Below, one piece after another: positions 9,328 to 54,117 of a DNA stretch of 64,000 nucleotides. Under the pieces are notes generated by a model that saw nothing but the letters and a program-made list of their open reading frames with translations, ran no database searches and had not been told where the DNA came from. Origin of the DNA: Actinomycetes bacterium (GTDB lineage Bacteria > Actinomycetota > Acidimicrobiia > Acidimicrobiales > Ilumatobacteraceae). Within the stretch, counting starts at the first letter, position 1. The number at the start of each line of letters is the position of its first letter. Made by a program: the position numbers and the translations under genes. The stretch is from NCBI GenBank assembly GCA_029782355.1, contig JAKOUY010000031.1:248001-312000 (forward strand), written 5' to 3'.

Positions 9328-10352
9328 CCGACGCGCTCCCCGGTCGTGGCGTCGAAGTGATGGCGCACGCCTTCGCCGACCGAGAGGCGAACCGGGTCGG
9401 CGATGGCCGGAACGCCACTGCCCGCCGGTTGGCGGACGACCAGGCGGGCCCCGTCGCAGTCGACGAACACGAGCACCTCGTGACCGAGCTGCTCGACCAG
9501 CCGAACGGTGACGGGCAGCGTGGTGCCATCGTCGGGCGCCGTCGGGCTCACCAGCCGGGCGTCCTCCGGACGGAAGCCGACGCGCACCGAGTCGCCGCCC
9601 AGCACGCCCGGCGGCAGCACGTTCATGGGTGGCGTCCCGATGAACTGGGCGACGAAGGCCGTGGCCGGTGCGGCGTAGACCTCCTGCGGCGTGCCGACCT
9701 GCTGCAGGCGACCATCGCTGAGGACGGCGACCTGGGTGCCCATGGTCATCGCCTCGACCTGATCGTGGGTCACGTACACGAAGGTGCTGTTCAGCCGGTG
9801 GTGCAGCTCGACCAGCTCGGCGCGGGTCTCGCTGCGCATCTTGGCGTCGAGGTTGGACAGCGGCTCGTCCATGCAGAACACGGCCGGGTGGCGGACGATG
9901 GCCCGGGCCAGGGCGACGCGCTGGCGCTGGCCGCCGCTGAGCTGGCCCGGTTTGCGGTCGAGCAGCGTGTCGAGACCGAGCATCGCGGCAGCCTGGCGGC
10001 CCTGCTCGGCCCGCTCGGCCTTGCCGACCCCGCGGGCCTTCAGCGGGAACTCGATGTTGGCGGCGACGGTCTTGTGCGGGTACAGGGCGTAGCTCTGGAA
10101 CACCATCGCCACGTCGCGTTCCTTGGGCAGCACGTCGTTGACCCGCCGCTCGTCGATGAACACGTCGCCCGAGGTGGGCGTCTCCAGGCCGGCGATCATC
10201 CGCAGCAGGGTCGACTTCCCGCATCCCGACGGCCCGAGGAGGATCATGAACTCGTGGTCGGCGATGTCGAGCGACACGTCGTCGACGGCCCTCACCTCAC
10301 CACCACCCGAGCCGAAGGTCTTGGTGACGTGCTCCAGGCGTACCCGTGCCAT
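9324..10352 (-). CDS. ugpC: ABC transporter ATP-binding protein, UgpC/MalK family
   Basis: 342 residues. Walker A GPSGCGKST is at 40-48, Q-loop FQSYALYPH at 85-93, signature LSGGQ at 138-142, Walker B VFCMDEP at 158-164, and the switch His is in VTHDQVEAM. The C-terminal third is a TOBE-type regulatory domain (VGFRPEDARL). It hydrolyses ATP to drive import through UgpA/UgpE. As the first gene of the operon it has a leaderless promoter. MalK-type ATPases often serve several importers, so it could be shared. Confidence 0.9.
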   Translation of the reverse strand: MARVRLEHVTKTFGSGGGEVRAVDDVSLDIADHEFMILLGPSGCGKSTLLRMIAGLETPTSGDVFIDERRVNDVLPKERDVAMVFQSYALYPHKTVAANIEFPLKARGVGKAERAEQGRQAAAMLGLDTLLDRKPGQLSGGQRQRVALARAIVRHPAVFCMDEPLSNLDAKMRSETRAELVELHHRLNSTFVYVTHDQVEAMTMGTQVAVLSDGRLQQVGTPQEVYAAPATAFVAQFIGTPPMNVLPPGVLGGDSVRVGFRPEDARLVSPTAPDDGTTLPVTVRLVEQLGHEVLVFVDCDGARLVVRQPAGSGVPAIADPVRLSVGEGVRHHFDATTGERVG

Positions 10353-48013: not shown

Positions 48014-49810
48014 TCAGTCCGGGGCGGACGCGGCGACGGCGGGTGGGGCCGGCGGGGGCGGCGGCGTGGACAGCTGGCGGGACTTCGGTGGCTCGCCCAG
48101 CTTGACCCGGGCGACGCGGTGCAGGCGCCGCGAGCCGGGGAAGACCATCGCGTCGGAGATCGCCCGGCGGCTGCGCCGCTCGGCGGCCCGATCCTCCCAA
48201 TCGGCCCCCACCTGGTTGAGCTGCCAGTCGACCGAGTTGAGCATCCGCACCCGGGTGATCATCGCCAGGCCGGCCTCGACCTCGTCGTACGGGCGAACAC
48301 GGCGCAGGCTGAGCACCGCCTTGGCCAAGATCGGCATCAGGTCGAACAGCAAGAAGAAGTACCGCCAGGCGGCGATCTGCGGGCCGAGCGGGGTGTTCGG
48401 CACGAGCCAGGTGCGCAGGCTGCACCACGCGGTGTCCAGCCACCCGCCCGTGCACGTCGGGCTGCGCACGGTGGCCGTGGCCGCCGCGGCGGACGTGGCC
48501 GGCGGTGCCGATGCCCGCGTCGGTGTGGGGGTCGAGGTCGGGGTCGATCCGGCGGTGGCGGGTCCCGGTGCCGTCGCCGCGGCCTGCCCGGCGACGAGCT
48601 GGTTGCCGGCGAGGACGTCGTTCTCCTCGCGCACCGCGGGGGTCGGGTCGACGGCCAACTCCTCGAGGGCTTGGATCTGCAACAGCACCGACGGCTTGAC
48701 GTCGGCGGCGATCTCGTCGAGGCGGGCCTGCTGGCTCTTCTGCAGCTGGGCGATGGCTTGGTGCAGGGCGTCGATGGCCGGTTGGTTGGCGGCCTGGGCG
48801 GCCTGGGCCTGTTGCTGGTAGGTGGCCAGCAGGTTCTGATCGTCGGTGACCCGCTGGTTGACGGCGGTGAGCTGGTCGCCCAGCTTGGCTTGGGCGTCCT
48901 TGTAGGACCGGCACCGTTCGGCGCACTTGCGCTGTCCCGACGTGGTGAACGACGTCCCGTCCGAGAGCGTCCGGGTGATCTGGCGGCCGTTCATCTCCGC
49001 CTGCCACAGCTCCTCGAGGGTGTTGATGTCGGTCTGCATCGTCGCCTGGACCTGCTGGTCGGCCGCCAGCCGATCGGTGACCTGCTGGGCCTCGCCGCTG
49101 GTCCCCCCGGTCTCCAGTGCGGTGATCTCGGCCTGCTTGCGCTGGATCTCGTTCTTGTAATAGGCGTTGATCGCCGTCTGCGACGAGGAGCGGGTGACGT
49201 CGAGGATCGCCCGGGCCCGCCGATCGATGTCGTCCCGGAAGCGGACCAGCAGGACGCCCTCGGCGATGATGAAGCTGAGGCACAGGGCGATGGCGACTCG
49301 CGGGACGAGCCGCACGGCCACGCCCAGCATCGTCCGCAGCCGCCCACCGCGCCGGGCATCGACGATCTCGGCATAGTGCTTGGCCCGCTCGGGGCCCGCC
49401 GACTGCGGATCCCACAACGACTGCCCGATGACCCGGGGCAGGCGCACGGGGTTGAGCGGCAGGGCGACCAGGGCGCGGTCCACCACGAGCACGGCGAGTC
49501 CCAGGATCAGCCCGATGCCCACGGCCGCCGAGGTCCCGATGGTCCCGGCCAGCGCCCAGGTGGTGGCCAGGAAGGCCAGGACGCCCGTGGCCAGCACCAG
49601 CGAGCCGAGCAGCTGGTACTTCTTCTCCTCGGTCGGCATGGTGTCGAGGATCCGGGTGTCGGCGGCCGACAGCTTGACCAGCAGCGAGCCGAACGGACCG
49701 CGCCGGCGAGCGGCGACCAGCGGCTCGATGTTCAGCCGATCACGGAGGATCCCGTCGAGATCGGCCTGCGGGTCGAGATCCCAGAACGGATCGCGGTTCG
49801 AACGCGCCAT
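48014..49810 (-). CDS. DUF4407 membrane protein with coiled-coil domain
   Basis: 598 residues. After an 85-residue N-terminal part (LSAADTRILDTMPTEEKKYQLLGSLVLATG) come two close membrane helices, a third near 170-190 (VAIALCLSFIIAEGVLLVRF), a long helical, Gln-rich coiled-coil region (about 210-400), a Thr/Pro/Ala linker, and a last helix (WRYFFLLFDLMPILAKAVL). The pattern matches the DUF4407 family, function unknown. Four cysteines sit in the external part. Its own leaderless promoter separates it from the upstream selenoprotein operon. Confidence 0.8.
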   Translation of the reverse strand: MARSNRDPFWDLDPQADLDGILRDRLNIEPLVAARRRGPFGSLLVKLSAADTRILDTMPTEEKKYQLLGSLVLATGVLAFLATTWALAGTIGTSAAVGIGLILGLAVLVVDRALVALPLNPVRLPRVIGQSLWDPQSAGPERAKHYAEIVDARRGGRLRTMLGVAVRLVPRVAIALCLSFIIAEGVLLVRFRDDIDRRARAILDVTRSSSQTAINAYYKNEIQRKQAEITALETGGTSGEAQQVTDRLAADQQVQATMQTDINTLEELWQAEMNGRQITRTLSDGTSFTTSGQRKCAERCRSYKDAQAKLGDQLTAVNQRVTDDQNLLATYQQQAQAAQAANQPAIDALHQAIAQLQKSQQARLDEIAADVKPSVLLQIQALEELAVDPTPAVREENDVLAGNQLVAGQAAATAPGPATAGSTPTSTPTPTRASAPPATSAAAATATVRSPTCTGGWLDTAWCSLRTWLVPNTPLGPQIAAWRYFFLLFDLMPILAKAVLSLRRVRPYDEVEAGLAMITRVRMLNSVDWQLNQVGADWEDRAAERRSRRAISDAMVFPGSRRLHRVARVKLGEPPKSRQLSTPPPPPAPPAVAASAPD

Positions 49811-49816
49811 CGGCGC

Positions 49817-49822
49817 ACCGTA
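49817..49822 (-). promoter_or_regulatory. Candidate leaderless -10 box
   Basis: TACGGT on the minus strand, 6 nt before ATG 49810. Confidence 0.55.
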
Positions 49823-49859
49823 CCGCCGCCGGCGCGGGAATGGGCCGCGGCCCCGCCGG

Positions 49860-50384
49860 TCAGCGCGGCCCCACCAGGGCGGCGAGGACCTCGTCGACCA
49901 CCAGATCGGCGTAGGCCCGCATCTCCTCGTCGGTGCGGTCCTGGACGGGGTGCGGCGTGAACACCCGGGCCACCCCCGGCATGCCCAGCGAGCGAGCCTG
50001 GGCATCGGCGCCATCGGCGAAGGGGGCCGAGGCGACGAACACGCTGGGGATGCCTCGGGCTTCGAGATCCACGGTGTCGTGCACACTGCACGACGTGCAG
50101 CTGCCTCAATCGGCGAGGGCCTCGATCATCATCGTGCAGGTGGTGGCGATCTCGTGGCGCAGGTCGACCGGCGCCGGCTTGGTGAACGTCGGCTTGCGGA
50201 ATCGCTTGGTGGCGACCCCCCGCTCGGCCAGCCGCTGCTCGATGCGGTCGAGGAACACGTCGCCGCGCTGTTTGGAGATGTCGAGCAGGGCGACGACCTG
50301 GCCGTCGAGGCGGTCCGGACGTGGCGTCAGCGCCCGTTCGGTGGGACGGTGCTCAGCCGTGGGGTCGAGGATCGTGCGGGTCAC
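49860..50384 (-). CDS. UGSC-family selenoprotein, TGA at codon 93 read as selenocysteine
   Basis: A standard gene finder would split this into a 92-codon and a 74-codon frame. Both are in the same frame, separated only by a TGA at 50106-50108. Read through, the protein has 174 residues and the joining sequence is EALAD-U-GSCTSCSVHD, the defining motif of the UGSC (seleno)protein family, with Sec93, Cys96 and Cys99. The part before it (QVVALLDISKQRGDVFLDRIEQRLAERGV) and after it (GIPSVFVASAPFADGADAQARSLGMPGVARVFTPHPV) both belong to the same family. A hairpin fitting a bacterial SECIS follows the TGA. Start GTG 50384 has AAGGAGG 7 nt ahead. Function unknown; the U-G-S-C layout suggests redox chemistry. 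It ends a three-gene operon. Confidence 0.87.
50076..50108 (-). promoter_or_regulatory. Bacterial SECIS-like hairpin behind the in-frame TGA
   Basis: Read on the minus strand from TGA (50108-50106), 11 nt are followed by GTCGTGC (50094-50088), loop AGTGT (50087-50083), GCACGAC (50082-50076). The 7-bp stem is perfect and can gain an eighth pair, leaving the loop GTG. The apical loop lies 21-25 nt after the T of TGA, with a G among its first two bases. Both features are described for bacterial SECIS elements. Confidence 0.75.
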
Positions 50385-50424
50385 GGGCGGGCCTCCTTGG
50401 GGCGACGAGTCGGTCGGGTCGGGT

Positions 50425-51858
50425 TCATGTTCCCACCAGCCGGGTGACCGGCTCGCTGCCCATCGCCCCGCCGGCCCATCCGCCGATCACGGCCGAGAAC
50501 AGTCCGGCGTCGCCACCGGCGTGGACGAGCAGCAGCCCGCCGGGGCGGAACTTCGGGACCGAGGGGGCCTCGGCCAGGAAGTCGGGCATCCCGTCGGCGA
50601 TCCCTCCGGCCCCCGCCAGCCAGTCCCGACCGGGTTTGGCGCAGCGCTGGTGGATCTCGTCGAGGAACCGGTCGCGGTCCCACCCGGCCTCGGCCACCAC
50701 CCGGGCGTGCTCCGGTCCGAGGACCAGCATCGCGTCGAAGGCGATGGCCAGCTTGGGGGTGTGCACGTGCATCAGCGCGTCGGCCAGCACGGTGGCCAGG
50801 TCGCCGGCGGTGCGGACCTTCTGGTCGACGACGCAGCGCGGTCCCTCGCCGGCGAACACGGTGACCGCATTGCGCCCGGTGGGCACACCCCGGCTGGCCG
50901 CCAGCGAGCTGAACGGGGAGTCGTGCTCCCGTTCGGCGAAGCACAGCCCGAGCTTGCCCGGATTGCCGTGGGTGGCTCGATCGATGCCGCCGGGCCCCGG
51001 CCGACCGCCGCCGACGTTGCGGACCACCAGCTGGACCGCCCGTCCGATGGTCATGTTGGCGCGCACGCCCTGGCCGAGGGCGTTGGCCGAACCGTTCAGC
51101 CCGACGGCCGCGGTGCCGGGACCGTTGGCCACCACCACCGGGCCGACCGGCATGGTGGTGCACAGGACCCCGTGGATGTTGAACTCGTCGGTGCACACCG
51201 CCTCGACCGCGGCGAGCACCCACGGCAGGTGCTCGGGCAGGCAGCCCGCCATCACCGCGTTGATCGCCACCTTCTCGACACTGACGGCAACGAGGTCCGG
51301 CGCCACCGTGGCGACGACCTCGTCGGCCGGGCGGGTGGTCCCGGTCAGCATCCGCAACACCCGCTCGGGGGTGGGCGGGACCACCGGCAGGCCGTCGGTC
51401 AGGTCGCGCTGGAACATGACCTCGAGGTCGTCCTCCGCGTCAGCCAGCTCGATGCGCCGCGAGCGGAGCACGCCACCGTCGAACCGGGCACGCAGCGCGT
51501 CGACCCGATCGGGGTCGACGCTGAGCGACCCGCACCCGGGACGCATCACCGGCAGGTCGGCGCCGAGATCGGCGATGCCCGTGATCCGTCGCCAGTCGTC
51601 GCGGCGCCAGCCTTCGGTGCGCTCGACCTCGATCCCGTCGACCACCCGCAGCAGGGTCGGGACGGTCTCGATGTCGTGGTGCCAGCTCACCGCCAGGTCG
51701 GCGTCGTGGACGGCGGCCACACCCGCCGGGAACTCCGGATCGTCCTGGGTGAACACCGTGGCCGGAAAGGTGGTCAGCAGGGGAGCGACCATCTCGCAGG
51801 TGGCGCACTCGTGCTTGACCACGACGACGAGCCCGTCGGGCAGCCCCGGCCGGCTCAC
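50425..51858 (-). CDS. Thioredoxin-fold / UGSC-associated fusion protein
   Basis: 477 residues. The first about 95 residues are thioredoxin-like: strand LVVVVKH, redox pair Cys18-A-T-Cys21, then cis-Pro in TVPTLLRVVDG. From about residue 155 a large conserved domain starts with DGLPVVPPTPERVLRML. It has conserved Cys206, Cys222 and Cys233, and the motifs NIHGVLCTTMPVGPVVVANG and HGNPGKLGLCFAEREHDSPF. I know this second domain as a regular neighbour of UGSC proteins, with no assigned reaction. GTG 51858 overlaps the hydrolase stop (GTGA). The fused thioredoxin part points to electron or thiol transfer within the operon. Confidence 0.75.
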   Translation of the reverse strand: MSRPGLPDGLVVVVKHECATCEMVAPLLTTFPATVFTQDDPEFPAGVAAVHDADLAVSWHHDIETVPTLLRVVDGIEVERTEGWRRDDWRRITGIADLGADLPVMRPGCGSLSVDPDRVDALRARFDGGVLRSRRIELADAEDDLEVMFQRDLTDGLPVVPPTPERVLRMLTGTTRPADEVVATVAPDLVAVSVEKVAINAVMAGCLPEHLPWVLAAVEAVCTDEFNIHGVLCTTMPVGPVVVANGPGTAAVGLNGSANALGQGVRANMTIGRAVQLVVRNVGGGRPGPGGIDRATHGNPGKLGLCFAEREHDSPFSSLAASRGVPTGRNAVTVFAGEGPRCVVDQKVRTAGDLATVLADALMHVHTPKLAIAFDAMLVLGPEHARVVAEAGWDRDRFLDEIHQRCAKPGRDWLAGAGGIADGMPDFLAEAPSVPKFRPGGLLLVHAGGDAGLFSAVIGGWAGGAMGSEPVTRLVGT

Positions 51859-52727
51859 CCGAGGTGCTCCAGCACCAGCCGGTCGACCTCGGCCGGCTGC
51901 TCGACCTGCAGGAAGTGGCCGGCCCCGTCGATGATCTCGATGCGGACGTGCTCGGGCACCGTGGCCCGTGCCGCCTCGGCGATGTCCACGCCCATGCAGC
52001 CGTCCTGGCGCCCGTGGAGGTAGAGCATCGGCTGGCTGGGGATGGCGAAGCACGCCGCTTGCACGTCGGCCAGCGCCGGGTCGACGTACCCGGCGCCGAG
52101 GGTGGCGCGGTAGTAGCCGAGCGCGGCCTGCAGATGCGCCGGGTCCGCCACGGCCTGCTTCACCAGGGCCGCGTCGGCACGGCCGTCGTAGCCCGGCGAC
52201 CAGTCGGCCCACAACAGGTCGATGAACGCCAGGTCGTCGGCGGGCACGACCAGATCGGCAAGCGGGTGCTGGAAGAAGAACATGTACCAGCTGCGCTTGA
52301 CCTGGGCCAGATCGCTGAGCAGCGCCATGCCGGCCGCCGGGCCCGGCGGGACCGCCATGGTGACGATCCGCCGCCATCGGTCGGGCGCGTGCACCGCCGC
52401 GCCGGTCGCCGACATGGCACCCCAGTCGTGGCCGATGATCACCGCATCGGCGTCGCCACCGAGGGCGTCGTGCACGGCGATGGCGTCGAGGGCCAGCGCA
52501 CCGGTCTGGTACCGACCGTCCGCCGGGACGGCGCTCGGCGCGTAGCCGCGCTGGAACGGGGCGACGGCGTGGTAGCCGGCGGCGGCCAGGTCGGTGAGGA
52601 GGTGGCGGAACGAGTGGGGTGTGTCCGGAAACCCGTGCAGGCACAGGGCCAGCGGACCGCTGCCGAGTTCCAGGTACGCCAACTCGACGTCGTTGACGAC
52701 GACGCGACCCTCCCTCGCTGTGGCCAT
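51855..52727 (-). CDS. Alpha/beta hydrolase, epoxide-hydrolase/haloalkane-dehalogenase-like
   Basis: 290 residues. Oxyanion motif HGFPDTPHSFRHLL, nucleophile elbow GHDWGAMSA with Asp as nucleophile, catalytic acid region LHGRQDGCM, and His in GAGHFLQVEQPAEV. Asp at the elbow is the epoxide-hydrolase or dehalogenase type that forms an alkyl-enzyme ester. First gene of the selenoprotein operon; ATG 52727 is 6 nt after a TACGGT box. Its presence hints that the operon handles a small organic, perhaps epoxidised or halogenated, compound. Confidence 0.83.
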   Translation of the reverse strand: MATAREGRVVVNDVELAYLELGSGPLALCLHGFPDTPHSFRHLLTDLAAAGYHAVAPFQRGYAPSAVPADGRYQTGALALDAIAVHDALGGDADAVIIGHDWGAMSATGAAVHAPDRWRRIVTMAVPPGPAAGMALLSDLAQVKRSWYMFFFQHPLADLVVPADDLAFIDLLWADWSPGYDGRADAALVKQAVADPAHLQAALGYYRATLGAGYVDPALADVQAACFAIPSQPMLYLHGRQDGCMGVDIAEAARATVPEHVRIEIIDGAGHFLQVEQPAEVDRLVLEHLG

Positions 52728-52820: not shown

Positions 52821-53660
52821 GTGATCGCGATCACGTTCTACGGCGTTCGGGGATCGACGCCGTGCCACGGGGAGTCGACCAGGCGGTACGGCGGGAACAC
52901 GTCGTGCGTCGCCGTGCGCGTGCCCGGCGAGTGGCCGCTGGTCCTCGACCTGGGCACCGGGCTGCGCTACCTCGGGCTCGAGGAGCCCGACGACGAACCG
53001 TTCCGCGGCAACTGCTTGCTGACCCATCTGCACTGGGACCACATCCAAGGCGTGGCCTTCTTCACGCCGCTGCTGCGCCCCGGCGCAGAACTGCACATCT
53101 ACGGCCCGGTGCAGGACGACGGGCGGGCGGCCGGTGACGTCATCGCCGACGTGGTCCGTCCGCCGATGTTCCCGATCCCGATCACCGAGATCCCCGGCAC
53201 CGTGCACGTCCACGACGTCGGTCGCTCCGAGTTCGCCCTGGGCCGGATCCAGGTGCTCAGCCGGCCGATCCCCCACGTCGGCACCACGCTGGGGTACCGG
53301 TTGACCTGGGAGGGCCGGTCGGTGGCCTACCTGCCCGACCATCAGCAACCCGAGGACGGCTCGCTCGGCGTGTGCGCCGAGGCGCTGGAACTGGCCGGCG
53401 GAGCCGACGTGTTGATCCACGACGCGCAGTACACGCCCGAGGAGTTCGCCGTGAAGAACACCTGGGGGCACTCGACGGTCGCCTTCGCCTTGGAGGTCGC
53501 TCGGCTGGCCGGTGTGCGCACCCTGGTGCTGTTCCATCACGACCCGCAGCGCATCGACGACGAGGTCGACGAGCAGCACCGCTGGGCGGCGGAGGTCGCC
53601 GGGCGGTCCGGGATCGAGCTGGTGTCCGCCGGCGAGGGCCTGACCCTTCGACTCGACTGA
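52821..53660 (+). CDS. MBL-fold metallo-hydrolase
   Basis: 279 residues. It starts AITFYGVRGSTPCHGESTRRYGGNTSCVAV, has the metal motif THLHWDHIQGV (HxHxDH), a metal-ligating IPHVG and DAQYTPEE, and HSTVAFALEVARLAGVRTLVLFHHDPQRIDDEVD at the end. This resembles the PhnP/RNase Z-like phosphodiesterase branch. Substrate unknown; a cyclic nucleotide or phosphate diester is possible. GTG 52821 has GAGGGG about 7 nt upstream. Divergent from the selenoprotein operon. Confidence 0.85.
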   Translation: MIAITFYGVRGSTPCHGESTRRYGGNTSCVAVRVPGEWPLVLDLGTGLRYLGLEEPDDEPFRGNCLLTHLHWDHIQGVAFFTPLLRPGAELHIYGPVQDDGRAAGDVIADVVRPPMFPIPITEIPGTVHVHDVGRSEFALGRIQVLSRPIPHVGTTLGYRLTWEGRSVAYLPDHQQPEDGSLGVCAEALELAGGADVLIHDAQYTPEEFAVKNTWGHSTVAFALEVARLAGVRTLVLFHHDPQRIDDEVDEQHRWAAEVAGRSGIELVSAGEGLTLRLD

Positions 53661-53742: not shown

Positions 53743-54117
53743 GTGGTGGCTCGATTGGCGGCGTACGTCCTTGGAGCGGTCTTCCTGTTCTCGGCGGTCA
53801 CCAAACTGATCGACCTGCGGCGGTGGAACACGCAGTCGGCGGCCCTCGGCGTGCCGGTCCGCTATGCCATGCCCGTGCCGTTCGTCGAACTGGCCCTCGG
53901 CTCGTTGCTGGTCGGGCGGGTCGCGCCCGGCATCGTCGCCTGGGTGGCCATCGGGGTGCTGGTCGTCTTCACCCTGTTCCTCGTCCGGCGGATCCGCCAG
54001 GGTCGCCGGCCGCCGTGCGCCTGCTTCGGCGGGTTCAGCAGCAAGCCCATCGGCTGGAGCCACGTGGCCCGCAACGTGGCGTTCATGGCCGTCGGCGTGC
54101 TGGCCGGTCTCGGCTGA
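53743..54117 (+). CDS. MauE/DoxX-like membrane protein
   Basis: 124 residues, about four membrane helices. It begins RLAAYVLGAVFLFSAVTKLIDLRRW and has PFVELALGSLLVG; CACFGGFSSKPIGWSHVARN with a CxCFG motif is typical of MauE-type proteins, which help disulfide formation or electron transfer for methylamine dehydrogenase maturation. No mau genes are present; stand-alone MauE proteins in actinobacteria may belong to redox homeostasis. GTG 53746 is an alternative start one codon later. Confidence 0.78.
   Translation: MVARLAAYVLGAVFLFSAVTKLIDLRRWNTQSAALGVPVRYAMPVPFVELALGSLLVGRVAPGIVAWVAIGVLVVFTLFLVRRIRQGRRPPCACFGGFSSKPIGWSHVARNVAFMAVGVLAGLG

Follow-up and report, generated by a model that had tools for sequence, protein, structure and literature searches.

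The window examined here, the whole 64,000-nucleotide stretch of Ilumatobacteraceae DNA, carries a gene of the UGSC family that is interrupted by a single in-frame TGA, and directly upstream of it a gene of no named family that in all likelihood goes with UGSC as a two-subunit unit. The in-frame UGA, a conserved SECIS hairpin behind it and the decoding machinery of the genome together predict, with near certainty, that selenocysteine is inserted at residue 93 of the UGSC protein. The UGSC gene itself is very probably functional and an ordinary member of a known family. What is new is, apparently, the partner as an uncatalogued selenoprotein and the reading of the two proteins as subunits. We put the chances at about even that they are the halves of an undescribed selenium-dependent reductase of the Acidimicrobiia, with glycine and proline reductase as distant relatives, and that the partner constitutes an uncatalogued selenoprotein family in which, in one family of relatives, selenocysteine replaces Cys109 and is served by a SECIS hairpin of its own. 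With a near-constant partner, a Sec/Cys exchange at one partner residue and a probable link to GrdB and PrdB, UGSC would no longer be an orphan; it would become a two-subunit enzyme open to testing, for which candidate catalytic residues can be named.

Table 1. Features of the UGSC locus (window coordinates)
Feature	Positions	Strand	Basis
UGSC-family gene, predicted selenoprotein; GTG start, 174 residues, TGA stop	49860..50384	-	Frames; NF041046, PF24696
In-frame TGA, predicted to be read as selenocysteine (residue 93)	50106..50108	-	TGA in best 80 relatives; Sec/Cys exchange in paralogues; Sec machinery
Ribosome-binding sequence AAGGAGG, 7 nt upstream of the GTG	50392..50398	-	Sequence
Putative bacterial SECIS hairpin with a stem of 7 bp (GTCGTGC/GCACGAC) and the loop AGTGT (50083-50087)	50076..50094	-	Synonymous freeze; compensatory changes; largely gone from Cys paralogues
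Partner gene: N-terminal thioredoxin domain and unnamed core; start codon inferred, stop TGA	50425..51858	-	ORF; upstream linkage; co-occurrence
Partner thioredoxin domain, about residues 1-95	51574..51858	-	VIA-align to StoA
CxxC (CATC) of the partner thioredoxin domain	51796..51807	-	Alignment
Partner Cys109, without variation across an alignment of 51 sequences (the window's included); a TGA stands here in relatives from the family of genome G187	51532..51534	-	Alignment
Alpha/beta hydrolase, 4-nt overlap with the inferred partner start	51855..52727	-	Upstream of the partner in 30/80 loci

The two frames that the sequence-only reading had joined are both present on the minus strand, which that reading had left unstated (50384-50106, 92 codons from the GTG, and 50084-49860), and continue in phase through the one internal TGA. 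The read-through product, ...LAD-U-GSCTSCSVHD..., scores 160.5 bits against NCBIfam NF041046 (cut-off 125) and 164.9 bits against Pfam PF24696 (cut-off 25), and both matches span the two sides of the TGA. They cover nearly the whole length of the protein, with selenocysteine inside the UGSC motif, and no essential difference separates the window gene from this family; it falls into the subfamily marked by UGSCTSCSVHD, in which the partner bears a thioredoxin domain. Because NCBIfam holds an equivalog model for UGSC, ordinary annotation need not fail at such a gene, and the two fragments or pseudogene that had been expected from it need not result. By 2008 at the latest the family had been published: an ocean survey of that year counted UGSC as one of its major selenoprotein families and, in several non-marine samples, as the commonest one (PMC2398784); the available text of that paper does not name its function.

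Relatives were scanned with only the part of UGSC that follows selenocysteine (pattern CTS[CW]SVHD), so that the scan could not favour TGA over a cysteine codon. Among the best 80 of at least 588 named relatives, which are not phylogenetically independent, the codon at the selenocysteine position was TGA in 80/80, and the motif UGSCTSCSVHD was likewise found in all 80. The residues after the TGA are conserved in these relatives, in agreement with the earlier claim that family sequence flanks the codon on both sides. By their record titles, many of the 80 belong to Ilumatobacteraceae and others to other Acidimicrobiia or to unclassified Actinomycetota, with a few from Myxococcota and elsewhere. 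Carriers available in culture include Ilumatobacter nonamiensis YM16-303 (L094) and Desertimonas flava (L106). Four records titled Bifidobacterium breve (L082, L105, L131 and L134) carry UGSC sequences close to those of Acidimicrobiia, and these titles look wrong.

The exchange of selenocysteine for cysteine at this column, which the sequence-only reading had proposed to look for in an alignment of homologues, does occur in paralogues. A set of 72 further loci parsed from genomes of the class, the three of the source genome included, contained 49 with TGA and 23 with TGC or TGT, the set having been deliberately enriched for rows without a stop. The three UGSC copies of the source genome have one TGA each. 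Locus L084 contains, besides its UGSC gene, an ORF at 9397-9826 (+) that the UGSC profile also picks up (E 3.4e-11), perhaps a second copy.

The source genome (3.79 Mb on 40 contigs, completeness 98.04%) encodes the entire set of decoding components for which a search had been suggested. SelA (E 9.2e-92) and an adjoining match to SelB above the cut-off (263.9 bits) lie on the same contig, SelD is present, and a tRNA-Sec was found with 65.6 bits, for which ARAGORN agrees on the anticodon tca. Across the 296 genomes of the class, SelA was detected in 206 and UGSC in 106. Among the 150 matches listed, which come from 95 genomes with UGSC, SelA accompanied the TGA form in 82/84 genomes and was present in 3/11 genomes with no TGA copy among these matches (Fisher p 5.7e-8). 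The two genomes with a TGA-form UGSC and no SelA match are G188 (79% complete) and G292 (96% complete), for which an assembly gap and a loss of the trait are both conceivable.

We also considered that the TGA might be decoded as an ordinary amino acid such as tryptophan, through a changed code or plain readthrough, since a normal-length family member results from any readthrough. However, TGA also serves as a true stop in this genome, where both UGSC and the partner gene end with it, the residue exchanged at this position in relatives is cysteine, and a full selenocysteine system is at hand. Such decoding is therefore very improbable, and insertion of selenocysteine is the reading we follow.

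The stem GTCGTGC/GCACGAC with a five-nucleotide loop, which had been put forward as a bacterial SECIS element, is indeed present, and its loop occupies nucleotides 22-26 if the T of the TGA is counted as 1, in agreement with the sequence-only reading. According to the available text of PMC13188914, the bSECIS model comprises a loop of 3-9 nt, a stem of 4-16 bp, a G in the first two loop positions and a distance of 16-37 nt from the UGA to the loop, and bSECIS elements are diverse. The UGSC hairpin lies within all of these limits, with a loop AGUGU of 5 nt, a stem of 7 bp, a G at loop position 2 and 18 nt between UGA and loop. Its folding energy is unexceptional (z-scores of -0.33, +0.23 and -1.11 in three folding windows), and we rejected it as a proof of a SECIS element. 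Rfam gave no SECIS match at the gathering threshold over the 64-kb window and none at E up to 10 on positions 49800-50450.

The stem and loop fall into codons +4 to +10 after selenocysteine (ACG TCG TGC AGT GTG CAC GAC). In the window sequence and the best 80 of at least 588 relatives, reduced from 81 to 75 sequences by removal of near-identical ones, the mean relative synonymous entropy of these seven codons was 0.04, while 47 conserved codons elsewhere in the gene averaged 0.74 (Mann-Whitney p 1.2e-5). In 55 distinct 36-mers with TGA, 91.4% of the stem cells were paired and 17 cells had changed on both sides, and neither value was reached by any of 500 shuffles; two weaker measures of the same test were reached by 15/500 and 22/500. 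Slid versions of the stem pair at 11 to 53%. The covariation score of the version slid by +2 was 0.139 versus 0.155 for the true stem, with only 51% of that version paired.

The compensatory changes are clearest at the apical base pair. It is C-G in the ...TSCS... subfamily; in the selenocysteine forms of the ...SWS... subfamily, with the exception of L162, the tryptophan codon TGG goes with the valine codon GTC and the pair is G-C. In the Cys paralogues L022, L023 and L045, TGG stands with GTG, which leaves an apical mismatch; the Cys form L032 has kept both the apical pair and the whole stem. Counted over distinct 36-mers, 6.40 of the seven pairs are kept on average in selenocysteine forms versus 3.95 in cysteine forms, and the apical three base pairs are intact in 49/55 versus 2/22. 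As the comparison of relatives shows, the putative SECIS hairpin is beyond chance.

These observations bear on the possibility that a nonsense change or a sequencing error has split an ordinary Cys-type gene. A lone in-frame TGA can arise in this way, and the folding energy of the hairpin is ordinary. On the other hand, the TGA occurs at the same codon throughout the best 80 relatives, the residues on both sides of it are conserved, the hairpin is frozen at synonymous sites and the genome possesses the selenocysteine machinery, all of which makes a pseudogene even less credible than decoding as an ordinary amino acid.

The partner gene that lies directly upstream of UGSC encodes a protein of about 477 residues. 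Its thioredoxin-like part is best matched by StoA in VIA-align (Z 8.7, rmsd 2.7 over 93 residues), whose rows for this protein cover about residues 1-95 only, and a PDB sequence search likewise matched thioredoxins to its first part. The CxxC reads CxTC in 62/63 loci scored among the best 80 of at least 588 relatives and CRGC/CHGC in the remaining one. A filtered Pfam search of the protein at E up to 10 found no match, and NCBIfam returned thioredoxin alone, below the cut-off (E 0.062). With the whole partner as a Foldseek query, class I fumarase and cyclic amide hydrolase ranked high; their TM-scores to the query were about 0.2 or below, and these rows were set aside.

The linkage of the two genes is close to constant. 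Enough DNA was available at 67 loci, and at 64 of these the partner lies upstream of UGSC at a distance of at most 600 bases; of the remaining three loci, two have it about 7 kb from UGSC, and one gave no partner. Across the 296 genomes of the class, 103 have both genes, three UGSC only, three the partner only and 187 neither (Fisher p 6e-72). The other two UGSC copies of the source genome repeat the association in different forms. The second (L011, motif UGSCTSWSVHD) has a separate partner core without a thioredoxin domain upstream of it, and the third (L012, motif MGC-U-GSC) is fused to a partner core in a single frame. An SDR-like frame downstream of the second copy and a cytochrome-P450-like frame ahead of the fusion were recognised by eye.

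A fusion of this kind has been reported. The Global Ocean Sampling selenoproteome contains a UGSC/Unknown_1 fusion (PMC2398784), in which UGSC is joined to an unknown domain as in L012. Unknown_1 would correspond to the partner core; the available text does not mention a selenocysteine in the unknown domain.

The AlphaFold2 model of UGSC (pLDDT 92.2, pTM 0.87) alternates strand and helix five times and places Sec93 just before a helix. The Foldseek and VIA rows listed, all generic, include flavodoxin, TIR, PurE and LacI-type folds, the top VIA row being a designed protein with a Z of 11.7, and a PDB sequence search with UGSC gave nothing useful. The predicted fold appears flavodoxin/Rossmann-like. 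The 2008 paper had considered a thioredoxin-like fold likely (PMC2398784, available text). The latter view would favour UGSC as a thiol peroxidase or thioredoxin-like protein acting alone, with no part for the partner, as would the 3/67 loci in which the partner is distant or was not found and the three genomes with UGSC and no partner match. Against it stand the linkage and co-occurrence with the partner, the natural fusion of UGSC to the partner core and the Rossmann-like order of elements in a confident model. We regard a stand-alone protein as unlikely and retain the two-subunit unit.

Several sequence comparisons point to a probable distant kinship of the selenocysteine region of UGSC with GrdB and PrdB, the selenocysteine subunits of glycine and proline reductase. 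This kinship does not extend to a family match: a filtered search of the window protein against PF07355 was negative at E up to 10, and UGSC is therefore not placed in that family. The PF07355 model, which ends at selenocysteine and is blind to the region after it, also had no match in the source genome. In NCBIfam the window protein gave weak matches to GrdF (E 0.057) and GrdB (E 0.15), both located at the selenocysteine. An untrimmed comparison of UGSC and GrdB profiles gave no match. After trimming of gap-rich columns, the UGSC profile aligned to the C-terminal end of GrdB with the selenocysteine columns in register (probability 50.9). The probability rose to 89.6, again with the selenocysteine columns in register, for short PrdB-like selenocysteine proteins of the same class, which in turn matched the GrdB profile with a probability of 99.4. 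The 16 PrdB-like genes fetched from this class (L183-L198) all read on through one TGA into a U-P-x-C-type motif.

The UGSC profile was also used to rank a pool of 4,491 ORFs, 12 GrdB and 16 PrdB-like sequences. The ranking opened with 48 UGSC halves and the ORF of L084 mentioned above, 49 rows in all, and the next 14 were all GrdB or PrdB-like. With the selenocysteine column masked, the six rows that followed an equal number of leading rows were still GrdB or PrdB-like (best E 6.3e-5), and the rest mixed with noise. Besides the aligned selenocysteine columns, most of the proteins compared share E-x-x-G-[IVL]-P and, further on, H or HP; the first half of UGSC remains unaligned, and the Pfam-level match is missing. 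A further difference concerns the UxxCxxC motif, which in GrdB likely interacts with GrdA (PMC13188914, available text). The window protein has this spacing (U93-C96-C99), whereas the 12 GrdB proteins of the class read UGTGTR or UGTSTR and hence are without its first cysteine. Searches of the source genome for PF09338 and for GrdA gave no match, and the controls were silent too. Taken together, the alignments point to a probable distant kinship between the selenocysteine regions of UGSC, GrdB and the PrdB-like proteins.

In four genomes of a single family, that of genome G187, a scan of the class revealed partner genes of the thioredoxin type that contain one TGA. The partner is present in 46/48 genomes of this family, and of 45 matches spanning the column of window Cys109, 41 have one TGA and four have none. 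The TGA falls exactly on that column: the window sequence RPG-C-GSLSVDP corresponds to KPG-U-GSLTVDP or KPG-U-GSLSVDP in these relatives. A strict pattern read 25 of 36 loci, and all 25, four of which repeat others, have TGA at this position. A looser reading of the rest took in six of nine loci, with L221, L227 and L230 left out, and added three TGA forms (L215, L216 and L234) and three Cys forms (L225, L226 and L228), the latter coming from the four stop-free matches. The TGA-bearing loci are thus L199-L202, L205-L220, L222-L224, L229 and L231-L234. In the UGSCTSCSVHD-type loci among the best 80 of at least 588 relatives, the column is occupied by cysteine codons, TGC in 49/63 and TGT in 14/63. 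Two partner cores of another subfamily, L203 and L204, have listed TGAs; those of L204 precede the likely start, and L203 gave no frame.

Downstream of the partner TGA there is a separate hairpin with a five-nucleotide loop, typically GTCGAYCC-CGGGC-GGRTCGAC. It was found in 24 of the 25 loci that were folded, which are the strictly read ones; in the exception, L233, the stem contains an N. One read-through copy (L201) had no Pfam match at E up to 1, and its only NCBIfam match was thioredoxin, below the cut-off (E 0.13). Judged from these sequences, some related bacteria appear to have a partner that is itself a selenoprotein, and apparently an uncatalogued one. Since cysteine and selenocysteine exchange at the Cys109 column, this residue is probably redox-active. 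With selenocysteine in place of Cys109 and a SECIS hairpin of their own, some of these operons would make two selenoproteins of one enzyme. Neither a selenoprotein partner of UGSC nor a link between UGSC and GrdB is described in the available text of PMC2398784, PMC13188914, PMC5029168, PMC9312934, PMC1088965, PMC7539508 and PMC12013277, and a literature search on selenoproteins and Ilumatobacter gave no paper.

The likely mechanism is that of a two-part, thioredoxin-fed selenol reductase. UGSC, with its predicted Rossmann-like fold, its selenocysteine just before a helix and its UxxCxxC spacing, would form one reductase with the upstream partner. Sec93 would attack the substrate, and the resulting selenenylsulphide would be resolved either within UGSC, by a nearby cysteine, or by partner residue Cys109; the partner's own thioredoxin domain (CATC) would supply the electrons. 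The chemistry would resemble that of the selenocysteine subunits GrdB and PrdB, and for such reductive chemistry in UGSC we see the odds as evenly balanced.

In the loci of the best 80 of at least 588 relatives, many of which end early, an alpha/beta hydrolase was found 30 times, an MBL hydrolase 38 times and MauE 28 times, nearly all upstream and at similar distances; no substrate could be derived from any of the three. A DUF4407 protein at 48017-49810 (-) adjoins UGSC in the window. A tblastn search at E 1e-12 of the flanking DNA available for the same 80 loci found DUF4407 in none, and a longer frame that includes it matched five of the relatives' loci. In the window, a MauE-family membrane protein at 53743-54117 (+; E 2.9e-23) and an MBL-fold hydrolase at 52821-53660 (+) lie beside the operon in divergent orientation.
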